Shown here: positions 11,611 through 31,087 of the stretch, piece by piece | Position numbering within the stretch: position 1 is the first letter of the stretch | Layout: every line of letters starts with the position of its first letter | DNA from: a virus | Length of the DNA: 31,476 bases | IMG/VR virus record: IMGVR_UViG_3300032220_000675 | Location: 1 to 31,476 of that record | Strand: one strand, 5' to 3' | Translations under genes and position numbers: made by a program | Notes under the pieces: model-generated | Seen by the model: only the letters and a program-made list of their open reading frames with translations | Database searches by the model: none | What the model was told of the DNA's origin: nothing

Positions 11611-12159
11611 TTATGAAATAAAACCTAAACTGTCTCTAAACCTATATGCTTCATCAAGCATTGGGTTATTTGGAATTGCAAGGTGAGAGTAATCTGACAA
11701 ATTATCTGGATTTAAAAACCTTACAAACATCATCCTGACATACTCTCCTTCTTTAAAATGCTTTAAAACCCTCCAATGAATTTCTTTATTTGCATTAAAG
11801 ATTAAGGCACAGTTATCCTCTAACTTATAAGTTTCTAGGTTTAACCCTATATCCCAAACGGTATTAGACTCTAATTGTATACTAACAATCAGGTCATTAG
11901 TGTCTCCATCAAAATGAGGATTTAGTTCAGGGTTTCCATATAAAAGGCTATATTCTACAGACATGGCAGAGCCCATCTCTAAAGGTTTGCCAATCTCCTT
12001 TAGTTTCTCAATAGTCTCTGGGAGTAGTAGGCTTTCTAAATCACGAACCTGAATCCTGCCTAACTCATTATCAATAATTGTTGGGCTTTCTGATATTATT
12101 TTCTTTATATGATCTATTTCTTTTTTTGAAAAAATATTATTTATTCTTGTTATTGACAT
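11611..12159 (-). CDS. 2OG-Fe(II) oxygenase-like protein
   Basis: A 182-residue protein with the double-stranded beta-helix pattern of Fe(II)/2-oxoglutarate oxygenases. H82-F-D84 and distal H128 (IHWRV) would bind iron. R142 (GEYVRMMF) would bind 2-oxoglutarate. It hydroxylates an unknown substrate. This copy is the most diverged of the seven here. The -10 (TACAAT, 12166-12171 reverse) is 6 nt before the ATG, so leaderless. It shares a divergent promoter region and a DnaA-like box with the gene at 12213. Confidence 0.75.
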   Translation of the reverse strand: MSITRINNIFSKKEIDHIKKIISESPTIIDNELGRIQVRDLESLLLPETIEKLKEIGKPLEMGSAMSVEYSLLYGNPELNPHFDGDTNDLIVSIQLESNTVWDIGLNLETYKLEDNCALIFNANKEIHWRVLKHFKEGEYVRMMFVRFLNPDNLSDYSHLAIPNNPMLDEAYRFRDSLGFIS

Positions 12160-12631: not shown

Positions 12632-13231
12632 ATGGATAAAATTATAGAAGCCTCCAACAACAAGACATATGCCCTATTTAGGGGGCTATGCAAAGATGTG
12701 CCTAACTGGTCAGATTTCATAGAAAACTTTGATTATAACTACAATAGAGATAAAGACAAAAATAAAAATAATCCAGACCGTAGATACCTTACAGACTACA
12801 TTGTGGTTTACAATAAATTTGACCCTATCATCTTTGATGCTATAGAAGACAAAACCACTAGACTATTTGATAAGTCACTAGAGGCACAAAGCCTTATAAA
12901 AGGTTTGATAAAAAAGGAAATCAGTTCAATTAAAAGTATTATTAACTTCCTAGGCAATGAGCAGGAATACTGGATCCATAGTGATAACCACGATGTTGTC
13001 TCCTGGCACTGTGTTGGTACCATTGAGTGGAGATTCTATAAAAATGTTAAAGAAGAGGATATGGAGAAAATAAGCATTGAAGGTGCCGAGTATGACTCCG
13101 TAGTCCTTGAACCAGGAGATGTGGTATATGTGCCTGCTGGGGTGGTACATCAGGTTATTAATAACAAACCTAGAGCATCTTTAGTATTTCAATATTTTCC
13201 AGATCCTGACGCTATAGGGAATACTTACTAG
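12632..13231 (+). CDS. JmjC/cupin-like putative oxygenase
   Basis: A 199-residue protein with a cupin fold signature: H116-S-D118 followed by VVSWHCVGTIEWRFY, then LEPGDVVYVPAGVVH with H173. This fits the HxD...H iron-binding triad of JmjC/cupin_8-type oxygenases (as in ribosomal oxygenases). Such enzymes hydroxylate protein or small substrates with 2-oxoglutarate, and the target here is unknown. Homologous to the C-terminal half of the gene at 20638. Leaderless promoter (TATGAT, 12620-12625). Confidence 0.7.
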   Translation: MDKIIEASNNKTYALFRGLCKDVPNWSDFIENFDYNYNRDKDKNKNNPDRRYLTDYIVVYNKFDPIIFDAIEDKTTRLFDKSLEAQSLIKGLIKKEISSIKSIINFLGNEQEYWIHSDNHDVVSWHCVGTIEWRFYKNVKEEDMEKISIEGAEYDSVVLEPGDVVYVPAGVVHQVINNKPRASLVFQYFPDPDAIGNTY

Positions 13232-15930: not shown

Positions 15931-16152
15931 ATGAATAGTAGAATACTTAAAGATGGATCAGAAATAATTTCATTTGAGACTCCAGTTGATTTAATTATAC
16001 ATACAAAAGCCCCTGGAAAATGGAAATTGATTGATTTAGAAACAGGAGAAGAATACCTTGGATCTGAAGTAGAAACTGGCTTTGCGGAAATTTTACGAGA
16101 AAAAGTTAAAAATGGCAAAATAGGAACTTGGATAAAAACTCTTGGTAAATAA
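15931..16152 (+). CDS. Hypothetical protein (73 aa)
   Basis: A 73-residue mixed alpha/beta protein. It starts one base after the previous stop. No family recognised. Confidence 0.55.
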   Translation: MNSRILKDGSEIISFETPVDLIIHTKAPGKWKLIDLETGEEYLGSEVETGFAEILREKVKNGKIGTWIKTLGK

Positions 16153-16185: not shown

Positions 16186-16341
16186 ATGAAATCAAATGTA
16201 GAGTCATGTGATTTAAAAGAACATTTATTTGAAAATGGTGGATTGACGCTCATTTGTTCAAAATGTTCAAAAACATTTGAAGAGTATCAGGAAGACTTGG
16301 AAGTTTTTATTAAAGACTATAGAAATAACAAGAAGTCTTAG
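16186..16341 (+). CDS. Zinc-ribbon protein, cassette paralog 1 (51 aa)
   Basis: C8, C24-SK-C27, H13, and an acidic C-terminal helix (YQEDLEVFIKDYRN). It is homologous to the gene at 23620. Both lie tail-to-tail with a glutathione-peroxidase-like gene. Here the two stops overlap by 4 nt. Confidence 0.65.
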   Translation: MKSNVESCDLKEHLFENGGLTLICSKCSKTFEEYQEDLEVFIKDYRNNKKS

Positions 16342-17024
16342 AGAACTATTGCATATGGCGCTAATGTTCCAGCAGGGTGTGTGTAATAAGTTATATCTTT
16401 ATCTTCTAATAATTCTTCAATTGCATTTGATATATTCTTAAAGTCTTCTCCTGAACTTGTTTCTTTAAAGCCATTTTTTGTAGCAGCATCCATCAAAGTA
16501 GAATTAGCATATCTTATAATAACCTTGCCATTTTTATTAACAAGGAATTTTTCAAAATTTCCAAACATTGGCAGACCTTTTGCAAGGTTTTGGTAAATTG
16601 GATGTACATCTTCTCCCTCTAACAGTTTTCTTGGAAAGGATTCTGTTCTACCTGGATATAATTTTTTTAATGCTTGATTTGAGATTGATGTACCAACCAT
16701 AGATGTAACTAGTTCAGAAAACCCATAGGTTACATTGTATAGTTCTTTTGCATAATCTCTTGCCTCTTCTGGACCATCAATCCCACATTCATACTGGTCA
16801 TAAGTAATTCCTGGACCACAATAGTCGTTGGTTGGTATGGCAACTACTTCAAATCCTCGATCTTTGTATTTTTGATATAGCATTTCTATGATGCCGTATT
16901 GAGGGGCATTGCCACAATCTGCAGTAACATTAATAAACATTGTTACCTTGCCTTTATAGGAATTTAGCATATTTTCTTGCCCATCCCACGATTTTAGTGG
17001 AATATCATAAATAGATGCTGTCAT
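16338..17024 (-). CDS. Glutathione-peroxidase-like protein 1
   Basis: A 228-residue thioredoxin-fold protein. NVTADCGNAPQY (C37) aligns with the GPx peroxidatic loop and the following GFEVVAIPTNDY with the GPx motif that usually reads FPCNQF. C69 could resolve. The usual tetrad Gln is replaced by D in TNDY, and the Trp of WNF is G155 in MFGNFEKF. So catalysis may differ from true GPx. AGGAGGA upstream sets the ATG. Homologous to the gene at 23771. It would reduce peroxides with an unknown donor. Confidence 0.7.
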   Translation of the reverse strand: MTASIYDIPLKSWDGQENMLNSYKGKVTMFINVTADCGNAPQYGIIEMLYQKYKDRGFEVVAIPTNDYCGPGITYDQYECGIDGPEEARDYAKELYNVTYGFSELVTSMVGTSISNQALKKLYPGRTESFPRKLLEGEDVHPIYQNLAKGLPMFGNFEKFLVNKNGKVIIRYANSTLMDAATKNGFKETSSGEDFKNISNAIEELLEDKDITYYTHPAGTLAPYAIVL

Positions 17025-17539: not shown

Positions 17540-17750
17540 AATCTGGCCACTAAGGATTATAGGTAATTTCCTTGGTGGTTATGCTAGTAATCATTTAGTC
17601 AAGTCTCTTGATCTAGATGAAGATAATAATTTGGGATTACGCTTTAAGTACCATGCAAAAATGTGGAAATATCTTAATAAACCTTATGAGCGGTGGGGCA
17701 CTTACTACAGCCTAGACTTAGATGCGTGGAAAAAAGATTTAAATGGCTAA
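17505..17750 (+). CDS. Hypothetical protein (81 aa)
   Basis: An 81-residue basic protein (MLKHSTKIEKTRIWPL). An in-frame ATG at 17478 is possible. The C-terminal half (KYHAKMWKYLNKPYERWG) is aromatic-rich. It overlaps the convergent oxygenase gene by 12 nt. Function unknown. Confidence 0.55.
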   Translation: MLKHSTKIEKTRIWPLRIIGNFLGGYASNHLVKSLDLDEDNNLGLRFKYHAKMWKYLNKPYERWGTYYSLDLDAWKKDLNG

Positions 17751-18311
17751 ATATTTTGGAACTTTTATTTTTTCATATATTCCATTTGAATAAGAATATC
17801 GAACTCCTGATGTAACTTTAAGGACTTCGTGAGTGCAATGATCTTCTGCGCTATGAATAACTAAATCACCTGGCTCTGGTTTATAAGTAATTGACTGGTT
17901 TGGGTATCTAAGTTCTCCACCACCAAAATCGTTTATATAGGTAACAGTACCAAAAATGTTATTATTTTTTAATATAAATTCTTCTCCTTCTTTTAAAAGC
18001 AAACTTTGTTTTCTTACATCTAAAAAGGCATCATTGTCTGCATGTAGACCCCAGGTATCTCCTATGCTTAATATATTCATGGTGCTACAATTTGTAATAT
18101 GATATGGATCTTTTACTATTTGTTTAATTTTATTATATATAATAGTAAGACTTTTAATTTCTTTACTAGTATTTTTAGTATCCCACAAGGATTCTTTCTT
18201 TAAATTAATTTCATTATTTATGGTTAACAAATCTTCATTAGATAAAAAATTTTTATATACGTATATGTCTTCACCAATTTGAGTTAAATTATTTAAATTA
18301 AAAGGTATCAT
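17739..18311 (-). CDS. 2OG-Fe(II) oxygenase
   Basis: A 190-residue protein. H90-A-D92 and H161 for iron, R171 (SGVRYSYS) for 2-oxoglutarate, with GGGELRYPNQ and KPEPGDLVIH between, as in prolyl-4-hydroxylase-like phage enzymes. Target unknown. TATAAT (18318-18323 reverse) lies 6 nt before the ATG. Shares the intergenic region with the gene at 18387. Very close in its C-terminal core to the one at 19847. Confidence 0.85.
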   Translation of the reverse strand: MIPFNLNNLTQIGEDIYVYKNFLSNEDLLTINNEINLKKESLWDTKNTSKEIKSLTIIYNKIKQIVKDPYHITNCSTMNILSIGDTWGLHADNDAFLDVRKQSLLLKEGEEFILKNNNIFGTVTYINDFGGGELRYPNQSITYKPEPGDLVIHSAEDHCTHEVLKVTSGVRYSYSNGIYEKIKVPKYLAI

Positions 18312-19172: not shown

Positions 19173-19838
19173 ATGACATTTTTAAAAGGTTTTGCCAAAG
19201 AATTGTCAGAATCAGAAGTTAGTTTTAAAGAAATACATAGCAATATTTTTATAGTAGAAGATTTTATTCCTCAAGAAACGATAGATGACTGTTTTGCTAT
19301 CATAAATAAAACCACAGAATCAGAGTGGAGTTCTTTTTATTTAGAAAATTTAAAAACTTTCTGTATGGAAAAATTTAACAGAGATGATGTTGAAAACCTT
19401 GTTGCTGAAGGTAAATTTGAAATTACTGAAAACTGGGCCGATAAAAATCTTTATATTCCAGACTCTTTGATTGCTAAAACAATTATAAAAAGAATAAATG
19501 ATCTGATAGAAAAAACAGACCAGTCTCTTGCATTGATTGGTTGCCACACTATTCAAAGAATGTATAATGGTGTTGAACTATTTTCTCATACAGATGTACA
19601 TACAGACCCTTCAATTCAGTATGCAGCGATTTTTTACCTTAATGATAATTATGAAGGTGGACAACTTTTCTTTGAAAACTTAAACATATCTTTAAAACCA
19701 AAGGCTGGATCTCTTGTGCTTTTTCCAGGAACGGAAGAATTTAAACATGGCGTAACAGTTGTAAATCCTGGACCTACAAGATACGTTCTTGTTGGATTTA
19801 TAAAAACAAAAGATTTTTACAATAAAAATAAATTCTAA
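19173..19838 (+). CDS. 2OG-Fe(II) oxygenase
   Basis: A 221-residue protein with H139-T-D141 (or H143-T-D145), H192 and R203 in the prolyl-4-hydroxylase-type core. EGGQLFF and KPKAGSLVLFPG mark the jelly-roll strands. The N-terminal half (residues 1-120) is specific to this gene. It starts 6 nt after the gene before. Substrate unknown. Confidence 0.85.
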   Translation: MTFLKGFAKELSESEVSFKEIHSNIFIVEDFIPQETIDDCFAIINKTTESEWSSFYLENLKTFCMEKFNRDDVENLVAEGKFEITENWADKNLYIPDSLIAKTIIKRINDLIEKTDQSLALIGCHTIQRMYNGVELFSHTDVHTDPSIQYAAIFYLNDNYEGGQLFFENLNISLKPKAGSLVLFPGTEEFKHGVTVVNPGPTRYVLVGFIKTKDFYNKNKF

Positions 19839-19846
19839 TTATAAAA

Positions 19847-20563
19847 TTAAGAAATGTAAGGAAGTTTTTCTCTTTCAACCATTTCGTCTGGTAATATAAC
19901 CAGTTGATCATTTTTCTTTAGTGGGTCTAGCCAAGTTTCTTCTATACGAGAAGGGTCCGCTGTTTGAAGTTTATATTCTTCAGTACCATAATTGTTAAAA
20001 GTTCCTGGATTTTTAATTGCTTCTAAACAAAAGTTTGAATATGAGTATCTTGATCCAGAAAGGACTGGTTTAACTCCATGAGCATAATCTTCTAATGCGC
20101 CATGAATAACTAAATCCCCTGGCTGAACGGGTATAACTATGTCTTGTTTTGGATAAAAAACTTCTCCTCCAGTAAACTCCCCAAAGTAAACACAAACTCC
20201 AAATTCTAATAGGCAACATGTTGACCATATGTCTGGTAATGTTAGGTTTTCATGATTTCCTTCACCAGGACTATCCCAATGAGGTTCCATTCCTGCGCCC
20301 TCTTTATAATGAAGCATGCTTAACAATGGGTGAACAACATATTGTGGAGCAAGTAGTTCAGAAACCTTTACCCAAACAGGAAAAACTTCTGGGATAGATT
20401 CTGTGACACCATAGTTTACTACTCCAAATGGATGTTTTGTAGATTTATCTTCTCGCTCTTTTAATATTTTATTTACAAAATCAACCTCTTCCTTACTAAT
20501 AAAATTAGGAATGTAATAGAGTTTCTCGTCTAGCCTTTGAAGGTTTGGATGTGATATAGTCAT
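19847..20563 (-). CDS. 2OG-Fe(II) oxygenase
   Basis: A 238-residue protein (MTISHPNLQR). H95-W-D97, H162 and R172 for iron and 2-oxoglutarate. TGGEVFYP and QPGDLVIHGA as in the others. A C-terminal extension of about 60 residues (after 180) is unique. TATAAT (20570-20575 reverse) is 6 nt before ATG 20563. An upstream ATG at 20581 is less likely. Target unknown. Confidence 0.85.
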   Translation of the reverse strand: MTISHPNLQRLDEKLYYIPNFISKEEVDFVNKILKEREDKSTKHPFGVVNYGVTESIPEVFPVWVKVSELLAPQYVVHPLLSMLHYKEGAGMEPHWDSPGEGNHENLTLPDIWSTCCLLEFGVCVYFGEFTGGEVFYPKQDIVIPVQPGDLVIHGALEDYAHGVKPVLSGSRYSYSNFCLEAIKNPGTFNNYGTEEYKLQTADPSRIEETWLDPLKKNDQLVILPDEMVEREKLPYIS

Positions 20564-20637
20564 GACTTTATTATAGCACAATTTTTAGACTATACTTCAA
20601 TATATTCCCGACTTTAGGCCTATGGTATAATTGTAAT

Positions 20638-21420
20638 ATGAGACAATGCACCTGTGGTAGGTCAAAAACCTATCCCTATTGTGACAATACTCACAAAACA
20701 AAGGTAAATTCTGAAGATCTCACCCTCTCCTCAACCGACAACAACATAAGAGAAACTATACTATCAAAAATGAAAGAATCAGATAAAACTGGCAAAGTTT
20801 TATTTTTAAAAGGTTTTATGAGTCAATCTCCTGAATGGGGTGATTTTGTTGGCTTAATAAATCATCAATATAATAACCCAATAATTGATGAAGTAAGTGA
20901 AGATATCTATGATAAATCAAAAAAAGAAGAACATGGGGATCACGGGCCAAAGATTTTGTTAAATAATAACAACAAAAGTACAAACATGTATTCATTAAAA
21001 AAATTAGATTTACATGTTTTACGTATAAAGCAAATACCTCCTCTTGAACATAGTTGGTACAACATGCCATATCTTGATAATTTTTTATCTATATTCTATA
21101 AACAGGATATGCTAAACACTGTAAAGTCTTTAATAAATTTTGCTGGAAATGAATATGTTGGAACTGGTCATTCAGATAGGCAGTCTGTCGTTTCTTGGAC
21201 ATGCGCTGGAGAAGTTGAATATAGAATTTATCATATTAAAAACAGTACAGAAAGAGATTCATTAACTTATGAACAACAAAGAACTTTGACTTATGATTCA
21301 TACATTATGAGACCTGGAGATGTTATGTATATACCTATTGGTGTTTTTCATAGTGCTGTTGCAACTTTTCCAAGGGCATCTTTAATTTTAGACTATGATG
21401 CTTTAAATATACAAGGATAA
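20638..21420 (+). CDS. CDGSH iron-sulfur domain fused to JmjC/cupin-like oxygenase
   Basis: A 260-residue protein. Residues 4-19 read C4-x-C6-x2-S-x3-P-x-C15-D-N-T-H19, the CDGSH [2Fe-2S] motif with N for G. Residues 50-260 match the gene at 12632: H178-S-D180, SWTCAGEVEYRIY, RPGDVMYIPIGVFH (H238), RASLILDY. The fold would bind Fe(II). The C-terminal half may act as an oxygenase while the CDGSH unit gives electrons or senses redox. Leaderless promoter (TATAAT 20626-20631). Confidence 0.75.
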   Translation: MRQCTCGRSKTYPYCDNTHKTKVNSEDLTLSSTDNNIRETILSKMKESDKTGKVLFLKGFMSQSPEWGDFVGLINHQYNNPIIDEVSEDIYDKSKKEEHGDHGPKILLNNNNKSTNMYSLKKLDLHVLRIKQIPPLEHSWYNMPYLDNFLSIFYKQDMLNTVKSLINFAGNEYVGTGHSDRQSVVSWTCAGEVEYRIYHIKNSTERDSLTYEQQRTLTYDSYIMRPGDVMYIPIGVFHSAVATFPRASLILDYDALNIQG

Positions 21421-21424
21421 CCAT

Positions 21425-22213
21425 ATGTCAACCAAACTTATTTTAAATGGTTTTACTATAAACCCTGTGACACATCTTCCTCATTTGATAGATATTCTTA
21501 GAGGACTTACAGAATATAGTATAAAGCATAAGTGTGATACAGGATCAGACGGACCAATACATACAAACTATTTAGGAAAACCAATTTTTGGACCTGTAGG
21601 AACAAAGATACCAGATATACATTCTGATAATGCTGGAAGTATTGTTCAAGGTATACTAGAAAATGGATACTATACTTGTAGAGTTTGGGAAAACTGTTAC
21701 CCTGCAAAAATTCAATTTGATCTTTTTTTAGAAAATGATTTACCTGATATTGACTTAATCATAGATCATTTTTCTGCTCCTGCTATTCCTCAAGATGGTC
21801 TTGGGCTTTTTGATTATACCTATTCTATAAGTAAAACTAAAGAACATACAACAACATTACAAAAAGATAGAAATAAAGATTCGGCATATGATGTCAATGA
21901 TTTGATTGCCTTTGATAAAAATGGTAACTGGTCTGTTACTTTAAACAGATTAAAGAGCCCTGAATGTTATTTTTGTAATAAAAACCCTGAACACTGGATA
22001 TCTCTAAATAAAAATACTGATAAGAATCATACAGATTGGATTTCGGTTTTGTCTTGTACAAATCACAAAGGTTTAGGGAAAACAATAGAAGATGTGTATT
22101 CTGACAAGGCTAATCAATATTATTCAAATCAAGATGATAGAATTTACGTTATAAAAGAAATTAAAAATGAAAATAATGAAGTTATGTTTACAGTAAATGT
22201 GCCAGAAGAATAA
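21425..22213 (+). CDS. Unknown protein, weak AdoMet-decarboxylase-like segment
   Basis: A 262-residue protein, 4 nt after the CDGSH-cupin gene (AAGGATAA binding site), so likely in the same operon. Residues about 70-120 hold an ILENGYYTCRVWEN...FDLFL segment loosely like S-adenosylmethionine decarboxylase, but the pro-enzyme ESH cleavage motif is missing. The C-terminal part has C179-YFC ... SC-TNHKG, a possible zinc site. I do not assign a function. Confidence 0.55.
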   Translation: MSTKLILNGFTINPVTHLPHLIDILRGLTEYSIKHKCDTGSDGPIHTNYLGKPIFGPVGTKIPDIHSDNAGSIVQGILENGYYTCRVWENCYPAKIQFDLFLENDLPDIDLIIDHFSAPAIPQDGLGLFDYTYSISKTKEHTTTLQKDRNKDSAYDVNDLIAFDKNGNWSVTLNRLKSPECYFCNKNPEHWISLNKNTDKNHTDWISVLSCTNHKGLGKTIEDVYSDKANQYYSNQDDRIYVIKEIKNENNEVMFTVNVPEE

Positions 22214-22421: not shown

Positions 22422-22480
22422 TGCCAGAACTTTGGCACTAGGGTAAGATAAGAAAGTTGGTGCAAATCCAACCTGCCCTA
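22422..22480 (+). ncRNA. Structured leader of ahpC (riboswitch-like)
   Basis: TGCCA/TGGCA hairpin (22422-22437), then TAGGGTA (22439-22445) pairing TGCCCTA (22474-22480) enclosing GTTGG-TGCAAAT-CCAAC (22456-22472). The GGTGCAAATCC loop looks like the L5 region of cobalamin riboswitches, but the rest of the aptamer is not clear. It also looks like a T-arm, although no complete tRNA fits. It lies 18 nt before the ahpC ATG. Confidence 0.45.
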
Positions 22481-22498
22481 CTAACAGAAAGAGAAAAA

Positions 22499-23035
22499 AT
22501 GAAAACAGTTGGAGATAAGTTAGGCAACTTTGCAGTAACTGGAGTTAAGCCTGGAGCATTAACATATGATGATTCATCATTTGAAACTATAACACAAGAT
22601 TCTTTTCCAGGAAAATGGAAAATAATTATGTTTTATCCAAAAGACTTTACATTTGTATGCCCAACAGAAATTGTTGCATATGATGCTTTAGTTAATGATT
22701 TTAATGATCGTGATACAGTCCTTATGACTGGATCAGTTGATAATGAATTTTGTAAGATTGCATGGCGTAATGCTCATGACGATCTTAAGAGAACTAACTC
22801 ATGGTCATTTGCAGACACAGCACATCAACTGGCTGGAGATCTTGGAGTTCATCACTCATCTGGAGTTGCTTATCGTGCAACCTTTATTGTTGATCCTGAC
22901 AATACTATTCAGCATGTAACTGTTAATAACCTTGATGTAGGTCGTAATGCAGATGAAGCACTTCGAGTTCTTGATGCCCTGCAAACTGGAGAACTTTGTG
23001 CATGCAATAGACCGCTAGGTGGAGACACTTTATAA
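22499..23035 (+). CDS. ahpC: AhpC, 2-Cys peroxiredoxin
   Basis: A 178-residue alkyl hydroperoxide reductase. Peroxidatic C54 lies in DFTFVCPTE. The resolving pair is C167-A-C169 in GELCACN. This C-A-C tail fits the actinobacterial AhpC type. It reduces hydrogen and organic peroxides using electrons passed through AhpD. AAAGAG precedes the ATG. Its stop overlaps the AhpD start (TAATG). It lies downstream of two tRNAs and a structured leader. Confidence 0.9.
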   Translation: MKTVGDKLGNFAVTGVKPGALTYDDSSFETITQDSFPGKWKIIMFYPKDFTFVCPTEIVAYDALVNDFNDRDTVLMTGSVDNEFCKIAWRNAHDDLKRTNSWSFADTAHQLAGDLGVHHSSGVAYRATFIVDPDNTIQHVTVNNLDVGRNADEALRVLDALQTGELCACNRPLGGDTL

Positions 23036-23547
23036 TGACTTGGGTTGAACAATTAAACGAAAACCTTCCCGAATATGCCAAAGATATTAGGCTTAATCTT
23101 GATGCTGTAATTAACAGATCTACCATTGATGCTAATGATGCATTGTATATTGCAATTGCAGCAGCATTTGCAACTGGTAATTCAAAACTACTTACATTTT
23201 TGGTATCTAATGCAACAGATGAAGTAGAAAAAAATGCTGCACTATCTGCTGGCGCTATTATGGCACAAAATAATACATGGTATCCATATGTAGAAATGGC
23301 TGGGGATGCAAACTTAAAAGGCTTACCAGCCCAACTAAGAATGAATGCTATTACTTCTCATGGTGGAACAACTAAGGGTAAGTTTGAAGCCTACTCTTTA
23401 TCGTCTTCAATCATAGGAAAATGTCATTTCTGTGTTAAAGCACACTATGATACATTAAAACAAGAAGGTTACAGTGTTGATCAATTACGTGATATTGGAC
23501 GAATTTCTGCAACCATCAATGCATTAGCAAAGATACTTTCAGCATAA
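23035..23547 (+). CDS. ahpD: AhpD, alkylhydroperoxidase
   Basis: A 170-residue helical protein. Active site C130-HF-C133 with H137 (KCHFCVKAH) and E118. AhpD reduces AhpC using lipoamide/dihydrolipoamide in mycobacteria. The joint ahpC-ahpD arrangement matches the host system, so it was probably captured as a unit. Translation is coupled to ahpC by TAATG. A repeated hairpin (R6) follows the stop. Confidence 0.9.
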   Translation: MTWVEQLNENLPEYAKDIRLNLDAVINRSTIDANDALYIAIAAAFATGNSKLLTFLVSNATDEVEKNAALSAGAIMAQNNTWYPYVEMAGDANLKGLPAQLRMNAITSHGGTTKGKFEAYSLSSSIIGKCHFCVKAHYDTLKQEGYSVDQLRDIGRISATINALAKILSA

Positions 23548-23770: not shown

Positions 23771-24388
23771 CTATTTTGCTAATGCGTTTTCTATATCATT
23801 ACAAATTCTGATGTATGCTAAATCTGCTCTGCCAGCCTTCTCAGAATAATTTAGCAGTGCTCCATTATCATAATTTTTTAATAATTTTCCATCTTTTCCT
23901 ACCAAATATTTTTCAAAATTACCGCCCAAAGTTCCTCCACCATCTGCAGATGTTGGATCCTTCTTCCAAAGTTCCTCTGACATTTTGCATAAAACATTAT
24001 AAACTTCATGAGGAGTAACCTTACCATGTTTAGATGGCAATCCTGGGATAAGTTCGTCTTCGCAAGGGTTAGATTCAATTAATTCAGTAAACTTGTATGT
24101 GACTCCATAATTTGTTTTTGCAAATTCTCTTGCTGATTCTGCAGTGTCTGTTCCATAAACATGATCTCCATATGTTAAACCAACGCCACAATAATCATTG
24201 GTTGGAATAGCAATTACTTCAAAACCTTTATCTTTGTATTTTCTGTATATTGTTTCAATAACTCCATATTGAGGAGCATTACCACAGTCACCAGTAACAT
24301 TAATAATCAAAGTTACTTTACCTTTATAGTTATTTAAAAAATCCTCTTCTTGATCTGCGGACTTAATCTTTACATCATATACAGACAT
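23771..24388 (-). CDS. Glutathione-peroxidase-like protein 2
   Basis: A 205-residue paralog of the 16338 protein. C35 in NVTGDCGNAPQY. C67 in PTNDYCG. The GPx Gln and Trp are replaced as in the paralog (TNDY, GGNFEKYLV). GGAG is 7 nt before the chosen ATG (24388). The ATG at 24394 is too close to it. It should reduce peroxides, perhaps coupled to the AhpC/AhpD locus next door. Confidence 0.7.
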   Translation of the reverse strand: MSVYDVKIKSADQEEDFLNNYKGKVTLIINVTGDCGNAPQYGVIETIYRKYKDKGFEVIAIPTNDYCGVGLTYGDHVYGTDTAESAREFAKTNYGVTYKFTELIESNPCEDELIPGLPSKHGKVTPHEVYNVLCKMSEELWKKDPTSADGGGTLGGNFEKYLVGKDGKLLKNYDNGALLNYSEKAGRADLAYIRICNDIENALAK

Positions 24389-24477
24389 ATACATCTCCTT
24401 TTTTGTTTCTTAAGCAATTATACCTGCCGTTTTTAATTTATGATATACTATAAAAGGTGGTAAAACTGCTTAATAAT

Positions 24478-25674: not shown

Positions 25675-26214
25675 TTACATGTATAGGCTACTGTAACAAT
25701 CTTTTGTGTATACTTTATTTGTAGTAAAACAAAATGTCATGGCATACCTGACTCCACTTGTAACTTCTTCAACATAGTGCATAGACTCATCTCCATGAGA
25801 TGGAAAAGTTATTGCAACACCTTTTGATGGTTTTATTTTAACAATAATTTTTTGATTTGGAAAGACAATTTGACCACCTTCATATTCATCGTCAAAATAA
25901 ACTAGCATACCAAGAATATCTTCATCACAACCTTTTTGAATATCAGAATGCAAGCACATATCATCTCCTATATTATATTTCACAATTGATGATGAGTGAA
26001 TGTATATATCTTTTTCTAATATTTTTTTTATTTTTTCAGTATAGAGTGAAACAAGAGTAAGGAAATCTAAATCATACTGATCCTGAAATAATGTTGTATA
26101 CCTATCTCCCTTATTGTTACCTCTATAAAGACCTTCTAATTTTTTAAATATTTGTAAAGCATAAACAATTTCTTCTTCTGTAGTAAAATTATAATATTGT
26201 TTTATCATTATCAA
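25675..26214 (-). CDS. 2OG-Fe(II) oxygenase
   Basis: A 179-residue protein with H89-S-D91 and H146 for iron and R156 (SGVRYAMT). EGGQIVFPNQ and KPSKGVAITFP mark the core strands. AAGG lies 7 nt before the ATG at 26214. It overlaps the small gene upstream, so translation may be coupled. Target unknown. Confidence 0.85.
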   Translation of the reverse strand: MIMIKQYYNFTTEEEIVYALQIFKKLEGLYRGNNKGDRYTTLFQDQYDLDFLTLVSLYTEKIKKILEKDIYIHSSSIVKYNIGDDMCLHSDIQKGCDEDILGMLVYFDDEYEGGQIVFPNQKIIVKIKPSKGVAITFPSHGDESMHYVEEVTSGVRYAMTFCFTTNKVYTKDCYSSLYM

Positions 26215-26336: not shown

Positions 26337-26912
26337 ATGCATATATCGAGACCATTTAATAATGAAATTGTCGTAGTTGAAAACTTTTTGACTCAAGATG
26401 AGGCTGACTACATTCTTGATTTAGCAACAAAAGACATTTCCTTGTGGGATGCCTCAAATGATGGATCTGGACTTACAGAGCAATATGGCAATAGGCTACA
26501 AATTGACGAATACAATTTAAGAGATAGGTATCGTGACTACAATTGGTTCTTTAAAATGCTTGAAGAAAGAGCAAAGCCGATATTTTCTAAAGAATATGGT
26601 ATTTCAGATTTTTCTTTTTTACCAATAACCTCAATTTTTAGAAGAATGGGTCATGGACTGGATGTTCATACTGATGAAGTTGATAAAGATCACCCTCAAT
26701 ATGATGCATCTCTACCAATTATTACTCACGGTTTTGTAGTTTATATTAACAATAACTATAGTGGTGGAGAAATTTTTTATCCAAATAAAAATATAATTAT
26801 GAAACCAAAGGCTTTGTCTTTAGTTATGCATCCTGGAAATAAAGAATACGAGCATGGAGTTAATGACGTAACGAAAGAAATAAGATATAATCTTGCTTGG
26901 TGGACTAGATAG
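26337..26912 (+). CDS. 2OG-Fe(II) oxygenase
   Basis: A 191-residue protein with H111-T-D113, H173 and R183 (EIRYNLAWW). SGGEIFYPNKN and KPKALSLVMHPG mark the core. TATAAT (26325-26330) is 6 nt before the ATG, so leaderless. The intergenic region is divergent with the small gene at 26296. A multi-hairpin stretch follows. Confidence 0.85.
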   Translation: MHISRPFNNEIVVVENFLTQDEADYILDLATKDISLWDASNDGSGLTEQYGNRLQIDEYNLRDRYRDYNWFFKMLEERAKPIFSKEYGISDFSFLPITSIFRRMGHGLDVHTDEVDKDHPQYDASLPIITHGFVVYINNNYSGGEIFYPNKNIIMKPKALSLVMHPGNKEYEHGVNDVTKEIRYNLAWWTR

Positions 26913-28800: not shown

Positions 28801-29082
28801 CTACTCCATTGTTAATGATTGCCAAGTCATTCCCCAATCGTCTTTGTTTTTGTGGCTGGCAAACTCTTTTGATATTTCACCATTCTCTAAAAATACTCCA
28901 CCCCAAACACCCCACTCTTTGCCTGAAATCCCAACAGAAAAACAATCTTTTCTTACTGGACACGAAGAACAAAGTGCATCTATTGCTGGCCTTAACGACT
29001 CACTTTCTTCATACTTTTCAAAGAATAAATTTGTATCATAGTCTAAGCAAGAAGCATTATCTTTCCATTTAAATTTATTCAT
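28801..29082 (-). CDS. WhiB-like iron-sulfur transcription regulator
   Basis: A 93-residue protein with C12, C38, C41 and C47, the four [4Fe-4S] ligands of WhiB proteins, followed by GVWGG (58-62). WhiB proteins are limited to actinobacteria and their phages. They bind the host sigma factor and regulate genes. Phage WhiBs can change host division or superinfection. A cluster sensitive to oxygen or NO would fit the redox theme here. Confidence 0.9.
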   Translation of the reverse strand: MNKFKWKDNASCLDYDTNLFFEKYEESESLRPAIDALCSSCPVRKDCFSVGISGKEWGVWGGVFLENGEISKEFASHKNKDDWGMTWQSLTME

Positions 29083-30141: not shown

Positions 30142-30471
30142 TCAGTTTTTATTAAAAAGAACCTTGATTATTTCTTCTATGATTACTCTTTCATCACTTG
30201 GTAAAGATTTTATAGCCATGGAATCAAAAGATTTTGGTCCTAATTTTACTAAAGGATCTTTATTTGTTACGTCCATGTTAAGAAAACCCTTTTCCCAAAG
30301 TTTTAAAGTTATATCTGAAAAGTATATTGATAGTTCATCGCTAAGTTGAGCATCTATTTTCTTAAGCCTTTCTGTAGGCTTGTATAGTGACTCACCAGTT
30401 TCAGAATCTTTTCCTGCAAACTCTAGGCCTCCATTTAAAATTAAATTATCGACAATGTCAAACTCATCCAT
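30142..30471 (-). CDS. Hypothetical protein (109 aa)
   Basis: Starts MDEFDIVDNLILNG at 30471, overlapping the upstream oxygenase gene by 8 nt. Longer in-frame starts run far inside that gene. Acidic, mostly helical. It is probably translated together with the oxygenase. No family recognised. Confidence 0.6.
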   Translation of the reverse strand: MDEFDIVDNLILNGGLEFAGKDSETGESLYKPTERLKKIDAQLSDELSIYFSDITLKLWEKGFLNMDVTNKDPLVKLGPKSFDSMAIKSLPSDERVIIEEIIKVLFNKN

Positions 30472-31087
30472 TAGTCCACCCAGTTTGAAATTTAACTCTA
30501 TTTTCCCAAAACCCAGGAACAATATATTTTTCTCCAGATAGTATGGTGTTTGATTGATGGAAATATGGTTTTCTTGATGGGAAAACAACAATGCTTCCTG
30601 GAGTTGGTTTTACAATAATGTCATGATCTGGTAATTCTATCTCTCCGCCTGTATAATCGTCATTTAAATATAAGACCACAGACACAGTTTTGCCTTCATC
30701 ATCGTCATGGGTATCCGTATGCTTGCCCATCATGCTACCAACAAAATACTTACTAATAGATAGTGGGCAGAGCATTCCAATATCTAGCCCTGGATGCATA
30801 GACTCATAGTCTTTTGATACAGCAATAATTGAATCTGTAATTTCTTTTTCAATTTCTCGACACTCAATGTATGCTGGGTGGGCTTTATTAAATAAATGCT
30901 CACGAATCATTTTTTGTTTTCCAAATGCATAATCTGACTGATAGGCTGTCCAATCAGCCCACTTGCTTACTCCAGTATCTTCTCCCAGTAGGTGATCAGT
31001 GGCTTCTATTTTTTCAAGAAGTTCTTTAGGGTTTTCAATAACATTTTCATAATAATAAACATGCTTTTCTAAAATATTTCTTTTCAT
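30464..31087 (-). CDS. 2OG-Fe(II) oxygenase
   Basis: A 207-residue protein with H123-T-D125 and H177 for iron. The 2-oxoglutarate position is a lysine, K187 (SGEKYIVPGF), instead of arginine. TGGEIELPD and KPTPGSIVVFPS mark the core. It overlaps both neighbours by 4-8 nt. It is the only oxygenase in the late minus block. Substrate unknown. Confidence 0.85.
   Translation of the reverse strand: MKRNILEKHVYYYENVIENPKELLEKIEATDHLLGEDTGVSKWADWTAYQSDYAFGKQKMIREHLFNKAHPAYIECREIEKEITDSIIAVSKDYESMHPGLDIGMLCPLSISKYFVGSMMGKHTDTHDDDEGKTVSVVLYLNDDYTGGEIELPDHDIIVKPTPGSIVVFPSRKPYFHQSNTILSGEKYIVPGFWENRVKFQTGWTNG

Follow-up and report, generated by a model that had tools for sequence, protein, structure and literature searches.

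A miniature CDGSH-type loop associated with 2OG-Fe(II) oxygenases in uncultured aquatic phages

Analysis of the window, a 31,476-base IMG/VR virus fragment taken over its whole length, and of related viral records revealed that, in uncultured aquatic phages, a minimal CDGSH loop is a recurrent partner of 2OG-Fe(II) oxygenases. The window gene at 20638..21420 (+), in which profile matches and fused homologues identify a CDGSH-type mini-module joined to a JmjC_2 2OG-Fe(II) oxygenase, is one case of this partnership. It is apparently undescribed, and such fusions were absent from the literature searched for CDGSH together with phages, 2OG or viral metagenomes, in agreement with the earlier note on this DNA, which knew of no described phage enzyme of this kind. 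That note had presented the gene as a single fusion. The fusion is real, but its scope was underestimated: the module is found on at least seven 2OG clusters besides JmjC, at either end of the protein, and also as free ORFs.

The fusion gene, its start codon and its surroundings

The ORF encodes 260 aa from an ATG start, and its N-terminus reads MRQCTCGRSKTYPYCDNTHK. The mini-module (residues 1-22, 20638..20703, +), supported by the zf-CDGSH match and by purifying selection, carries the full ligand set in CDGSH spacing, with codons for C4 at 20647-20649, C6 at 20653-20655, C15 at 20680-20682 and H19 at 20692-20694 (+). Pfam zf-CDGSH matched residues 4-20 with 28.6 bits in hmmscan (cut-off 29.5) and with 31.1 bits, above the same cut-off, in a genome search. 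The alignment spans only positions 32-48 of the 48-position profile, which indicates that just the cluster-binding loop is present. The earlier note had named a CDGSH iron-sulfur domain fused to a JmjC/cupin oxygenase; the fusion is borne out by the ligand set and by the zf-CDGSH and PF08007 matches. As for the domain, the ligand loop is confirmed, but it stands bare, without the rest of a CDGSH domain, and its motif reads CDNTH, with the G of CDG replaced by N and with the S, the P, the aromatic residue and [ST]H all kept. A chance motif was ruled out by the absence of any match to a degenerate motif pattern in 100 shuffles of the window and by the 34 intact copies described below.

Behind the module, a variable linker (residues 23-52, 20704..20793, +), partly missing in the homologue L132, leads to the JmjC_2 double-stranded beta-helix domain (20794..21405, +), which was assigned from PF08007, invariant residues and Foldseek. 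The PF08007 match covers residues 167-243 with 29.2 bits (cut-off 22). The Fe ligands of the HxD...H motif, H178 (21169-21171), D180 (21175-21177) and H238 (21349-21351), all on the + strand, are invariant across fused forms and module-free paralogs. So is R246-x-S248 (21373-21381, +), located 8-10 residues past H238, which is plausibly the R-x-S site for the 2OG C5-carboxylate, whereas the lysine of MINA53 GEKHW aligns with a non-basic residue. The predicted structure of this part is a double-stranded beta-helix, and Foldseek matches obtained with the low-confidence model were 2OG/JmjC enzymes (E about 1e-3). The stand-alone JmjC_2 paralog at 12632..13231 (+), identified by profile match and alignment, matches the non-module part of the fusion protein at about 36%, the earlier note having already pointed out that this part matches the stand-alone cupin; it keeps the Fe-site residues and lacks the motif.

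An extended -10 promoter element, TATGGTATAAT (20621..20631, +), ends 6 nt before the ATG, in a leaderless-type arrangement. It was not called by a generic sigma-70 scan because it has no good -35. In L132, a homologue 49% identical to the window protein, TATGGTACAAT is found at the same distance before the start. A repeated box, TATGGTAYAAT or TATGATATAAT, lies 6-7 nt before the starts of the window genes 12159(-), 12632, 20638, 25259(-) and 26337; these boxed genes are individually promoted and leaderless-type. Comparison of the first 22 codons revealed 12 synonymous and 4 non-synonymous differing codons with L132, and 12 and 1, respectively, with L007. Codon 45 of the window gene is an internal ATG, and L132 has no Met at that position. 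A start after the motif was ruled out by the promoter element, the synonymous change and the missing Met of L132. Together, the conserved box, the synonymous change and the missing L132 Met show that the module is translated and under purifying selection.

The fusion gene adjoins a divergent 2OG oxygenase without the module (19847..20563, -), recognised by profile match and family comparison and 36% identical to a family that is C-terminally tagged in other phages (L095 and relatives). Further 2OG-Fe(II) oxygenases are encoded at 19173..19838 (+, PF13640), 17739..18311 (-), 25675..26214 (-), 26337..26912 (+) and 30464..31087 (-), and the gene at 11611-12159 (-), with HFD and a later HW, looks like another divergent, putative one. 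The downstream gene (21425..22213, +) has no Pfam match; its homologue adjoins the fusion in L132 and lies near the stand-alone mini-module in L007. The gene at 15931-16152 (+) is homologous to L007:4762-5004, both encoding short proteins with W-K-L-[IV]-D-x-E-T-G, and the stand-alone CDGSH ORF of L007 overlaps the end of the latter gene. The window also contains a peroxide-defence set at 22457-23035, 23035-23547, 16338-17024 and 23771-24394 (AhpC, CMD/AhpD-like and two glutathione-peroxidase-like genes), of which the AhpC and AhpD-like genes overlap by one base. A WhiB-like regulator (28801-29082, -) suggests an actinobacterial host. No recognised tail-fibre gene was found near the window fusion.

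Distribution of the module in viral metagenomes and cellular genomes

The same domain order was recovered from other metagenomic phages in IMG/VR. A protein search found near-identical full-length fusions in L001-L005 and one cut by a contig end in L006, and a second fusion lineage, L132/L022, is 49% identical to the window fusion. A singleton or assembly error was ruled out by these several contigs and the second lineage. The mini-module is identical in L001-L006 and differs by 1 change in 22 residues in L007, where the motif forms an ORF of its own, 42 aa long, which overlaps the gene upstream of it.

We then considered the phage-type CDGSH loop of about 20 residues across IMG/VR, using a pattern scan and a stricter scan, which yielded 78 distinct phage-type ORFs. 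Fusions were called with local 2OG and JmjC profiles from which the motif had been left out. The ORFs comprised 25 N-terminal and 16 C-terminal fusions to 2OG-Fe(II) oxygenases, 3 JmjC fusions, 30 unfused ORFs (one of which, L052, is probably a cut C-fused copy) and 4 truncated ones. Most unfused minis (23/30) have an oxygenase gene no more than 300 nt away, and some overlap an oxygenase on both sides. Altogether, 67 of the 74 untruncated phage-type ORFs are fused to a 2OG/JmjC ORF or lie no more than 300 nt from one, versus 2 of 22 cellular-type CDGSH ORFs near an oxygenase in the same scan (Fisher P = 8e-13, or 2e-6 with relatives collapsed into 25 and 16 groups); because the phage-type regex was written with the sequences already in view, these P values are descriptive and not predictive. 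In an independent test on records of at least 25 kb, 8 of 11 minis were within 500 nt of a PF13640 match, with 1.3 expected (P = 2e-6).

The module is carried by 7 oxygenase clusters defined at 55% identity, plus JmjC. On the 2OG tree, at least 5-6 changes are required to explain this, and JmjC adds one further event. The same oxygenase can occur both with the module fused to it and with the module split off. The free form is an ORF of 32-45 aa inside oxygenase operons: in L010 and L030 it lies between oxygenases B and C with a 4-nt overlap with each. The fused form is joined to C in L015 and L024, and L025 and L083 carry it at the N-terminus of B. HxD...H is kept in all fused oxygenase types inspected. 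Conservation of the Cys and His residues was assessed on loci fetched by the oxygenase domain alone: C-x-C-x8-C-x3-H is kept in 34/34 motif copies, no decayed copy was found among these loci, and the next match was noise (E = 2.2).

These data bear on the idea that a small neighbouring ORF simply merged with an oxygenase and that the fusion has no functional meaning. Free minis overlap oxygenase genes by 4-11 nt, so that loss of a stop codon can fuse the two. However, the strong purifying selection on the module, the lack of decayed copies, the repeated fusion at both ends and its retention in two JmjC lineages that are 49% identical make a neutral origin very improbable, and we disfavour it.

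A cellular origin of the fusion was also considered. None of 84,980 cellular genomes contained the strict phage motif. All 24 CDNTH proteins inspected from cellular organisms are ordinary CISDs, in which the motif is preceded by about 23-360 residues and the first position is hydrophobic, mostly L; the 2OG profile matched nothing in the DNA fetched around their genes. The absence of the strict motif, together with these ordinary CISDs without a 2OG ORF, ruled out this origin. Among known phage isolates, neither the whole window protein nor the C-fused type had a match; two N-fused types matched through the catalytic domain only, and the mini gave two matches at chance level.

Relation to known families and possible function of the module

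The phage module shares with CISD/NEET proteins (types 1-7) the four-ligand loop C-x-C-x2-S-x3-P-[YF]-C-D-x-[ST]-H, and its best match to a solved sequence is the CISD 3TBN of Magnetospirillum magneticum (E = 1.8e-4). Unlike CISD/NEET proteins, including mitoNEET, it consists of the 17-residue loop only and often has CDN where CISDs have CDG. According to Lin et al. (PMC3174974), a beta-sandwich that includes an N-strand and a P motif is required for the CDGSH binding module. Where CISDs have an N-strand with a hydrophobic position 1, the window protein has only M-R before a position 1 that is Q, and phage modules have Q or K there; the P motif (G-P-Phi-x-Phi, lid proline, beta-sandwich) is absent both before the loop and in the linker. 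Judged from its residues, the window module agrees with CISDs in the loop and departs from a full CISD in two structural features. We therefore use the name [2Fe-2S] "CDGSH domain" provisionally, as the beta-sandwich dimerisation elements are missing.

CDGSH fusions have been described with the FMN-binding domain of glutamate synthase (type 5) and with DUF1271 (type 7), which also combine the motif with another domain, the order being varied in type 7 (PMC3174974). Unlike the phage fusions, these are full CISDs with no reported oxygenase partner. On the catalytic side, the window protein shares PF08007, HxD...H and the JmjC fold with the JmjC_2 oxygenases MINA53 and NO66, a group that also includes YcfD/RoxA. 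It differs from MINA53 and NO66 by a catalytic part of about 200 residues, the N-terminal mini-CDGSH and the candidate R-x-S 2OG site. Most fused partners belong to the same catalytic family as phage 2OG-Fe(II) oxygenases (phrog_61, PF13640), but relatives in cultured phages match in the catalytic domain only and have no CDGSH. In Rieske oxygenases, a [2Fe-2S] centre feeds electrons to a mononuclear non-heme iron oxygenase. Their centres are 2Cys-2His and their catalytic fold differs from that of 2OG oxygenases, so the likeness to the proposed phage pair is one of working principle and not of homology.

We propose that the first 20 residues form a phage-specific miniature CDGSH module, C-x-C-x8-C-x3-H, which would bind a [2Fe-2S] cluster and serve phage 2OG-Fe(II) oxygenases as their dedicated redox partner, fused to them or as a free 32-45 aa protein of the same operon. 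Cluster binding is probable. That the module is a one-electron donor for 2OG oxygenases is the most likely of the readings considered, with a little under an even chance, and donation to the active-site iron itself is about equally tentative. 2OG oxygenases can stall as Fe(III) after uncoupled turnover, a stall rescued by ascorbate in animals; PHD2, for example, forms an inactive Fe(III).2OG state that ascorbate hinders and slowly reverses (PMC11525979). Host thiols or flavins would reduce the mini-cluster, which would then give one electron to the oxygenase iron and keep it as Fe(II), as a phage stand-in for ascorbate. MitoNEET has a potential of about 0 mV and is in the reduced state in the cytoplasm of E. 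coli; its electron sources include thiols, reduced flavins and glutathione reductase (PMC9737848). The fold of the truncated module could be completed by the partner or by dimerisation, or the loop could be stabilised by the cluster itself. We counted against the donor reading the lack of N-strand and P motif, the Q/K first position and the module pLDDT of 38-45 in both AlphaFold models, in which placing the module near the active site was not achieved. No precedent for a CDGSH protein donating electrons to a 2OG oxygenase was found in the literature searched. Many phage oxygenases, including the window paralog, do without the module, and catalysis therefore does not require it.

A module found with many different oxygenases, whether at the N- or C-terminus or in trans, is consistent with a general service, for instance re-reduction of the iron. 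Metal delivery would also be a general service: the labile 3Cys-1His cluster could supply iron to fill or mend the mononuclear Fe(II) site of the oxygenase, and a donor of this kind could work with many unrelated oxygenases, in cis and in trans, as is observed. MitoNEET does donate its cluster to apo-acceptors and can restore damaged aconitase (PMC9737848), but known NEET transfer concerns the whole [2Fe-2S] cluster going to Fe-S acceptors, not a single Fe(II). Five other minis are partnered with ThyX instead. Since ThyX is a flavin enzyme that is not known to contain metal, these minis tilt the balance towards electron transfer, and we regard iron or cluster donation as unlikely. The ThyX-linked minis (L175:6861-6977, L026:5917-6027, L048:9342-9443, L051:2772-2885(-) and L159:2518-2619(-)) lie directly behind the ThyX gene, at 3 nt or overlapping, with no 2OG oxygenase nearby; PF02511 scored over 120 bits in the four tested.

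The cluster could instead sense redox state or oxygen, its oxidation or loss switching the activity of the oxygenase. CDGSH clusters are redox- and pH-labile (PMC9737848), and the peroxide-defence genes of the window would suit such a sensor. Nevertheless, families differ freely in where the module sits and in its linker, and in operons the same job is done by a free mini, both of which are ill-suited to a tuned intramolecular switch; gating is in our view rather improbable. Returning to electron donation, a broader form of it would be a new, phage-only class of stand-alone Fe-S mini-proteins of ~40 aa without a conventional CDGSH fold of their own, shared as an interchangeable electron donor by whole 2OG arrays and in other phages by ThyX, with the fold completed by the enzyme served. 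This generalisation is doubtful, if worth stating.

If cluster binding is true, the module would be among the shortest natural iron-sulfur proteins. The free, N-fused and C-fused forms provide a natural experiment on cross-talk between an Fe-S cluster and a 2OG oxygenase, for which we found no precedent, and the 17-residue motif gives a handle for finding such systems in metagenomes.

Oxygenase arrays, candidate substrates and other contexts

2OG oxygenases are common in aquatic phages and often clustered. L042, L010, L016, L080 and similar records (G016-G023) carry, within 8-12 kb, 6-9 divergent genes for 2OG-Fe(II) oxygenases arranged in tandem; these operons contain a conserved gene pair of unknown function, DUF6065 / phrog_7084, and are often beside tail-fibre genes. 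Many mini-bearing arrays adjoin tail-fibre genes, some with collagen repeats and the Peptidase_S74 chaperone domain, others with FN3. Collagen-repeat genes beside arrays include L083:6350-7498(-) and L010:618-1919(-), one of them with Peptidase_S74. It is a reasonable guess that array oxygenases hydroxylate virion proteins, and the collagen-repeat tail fibres are possible hydroxylation substrates; these neighbouring genes thus suggest a substrate that can be tested.

Such neighbourhoods are also compatible with a docking or assembly module, holding Fe-S or zinc, that would gather the oxygenases of an array or bring them to a substrate, perhaps tail fibres. The occurrence at either terminus of many oxygenases agrees with docking, as do the arrays adjoining tail-fibre and collagen-repeat genes, and CDGSH motifs have a built-in dimer interface (PMC3174974) whose P and aromatic positions are kept in the phage module. 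The hydrophobic first position of this interface is, however, replaced by Q/K, and a pure tag would not need four ligands and CD-x-[ST]-H intact in every copy. A docking or assembly role seems unlikely to us.

The motif was also seen in other proteins. Six records (L074, L075, L084, L092, L098 and L100) encode 71-73 aa proteins with a C-terminal CDGSH motif preceded by about 52 residues that look SH3/KOW-like by eye; in L092 and L098, the gap from a preceding 2OG oxygenase gene to their start is 7 and 28 nt. Phage proteins of 123 aa in L014 (9122-9493), L027, L041 and L049 combine a WYL_2 (PF10902) Sm-like domain with a C-terminal CDGSH motif. Finally, the C-terminal half of an FN3 tail protein (L116:402-1631) matched the intein splicing domain PF14890 with 31.1 bits (cut-off 35.8).
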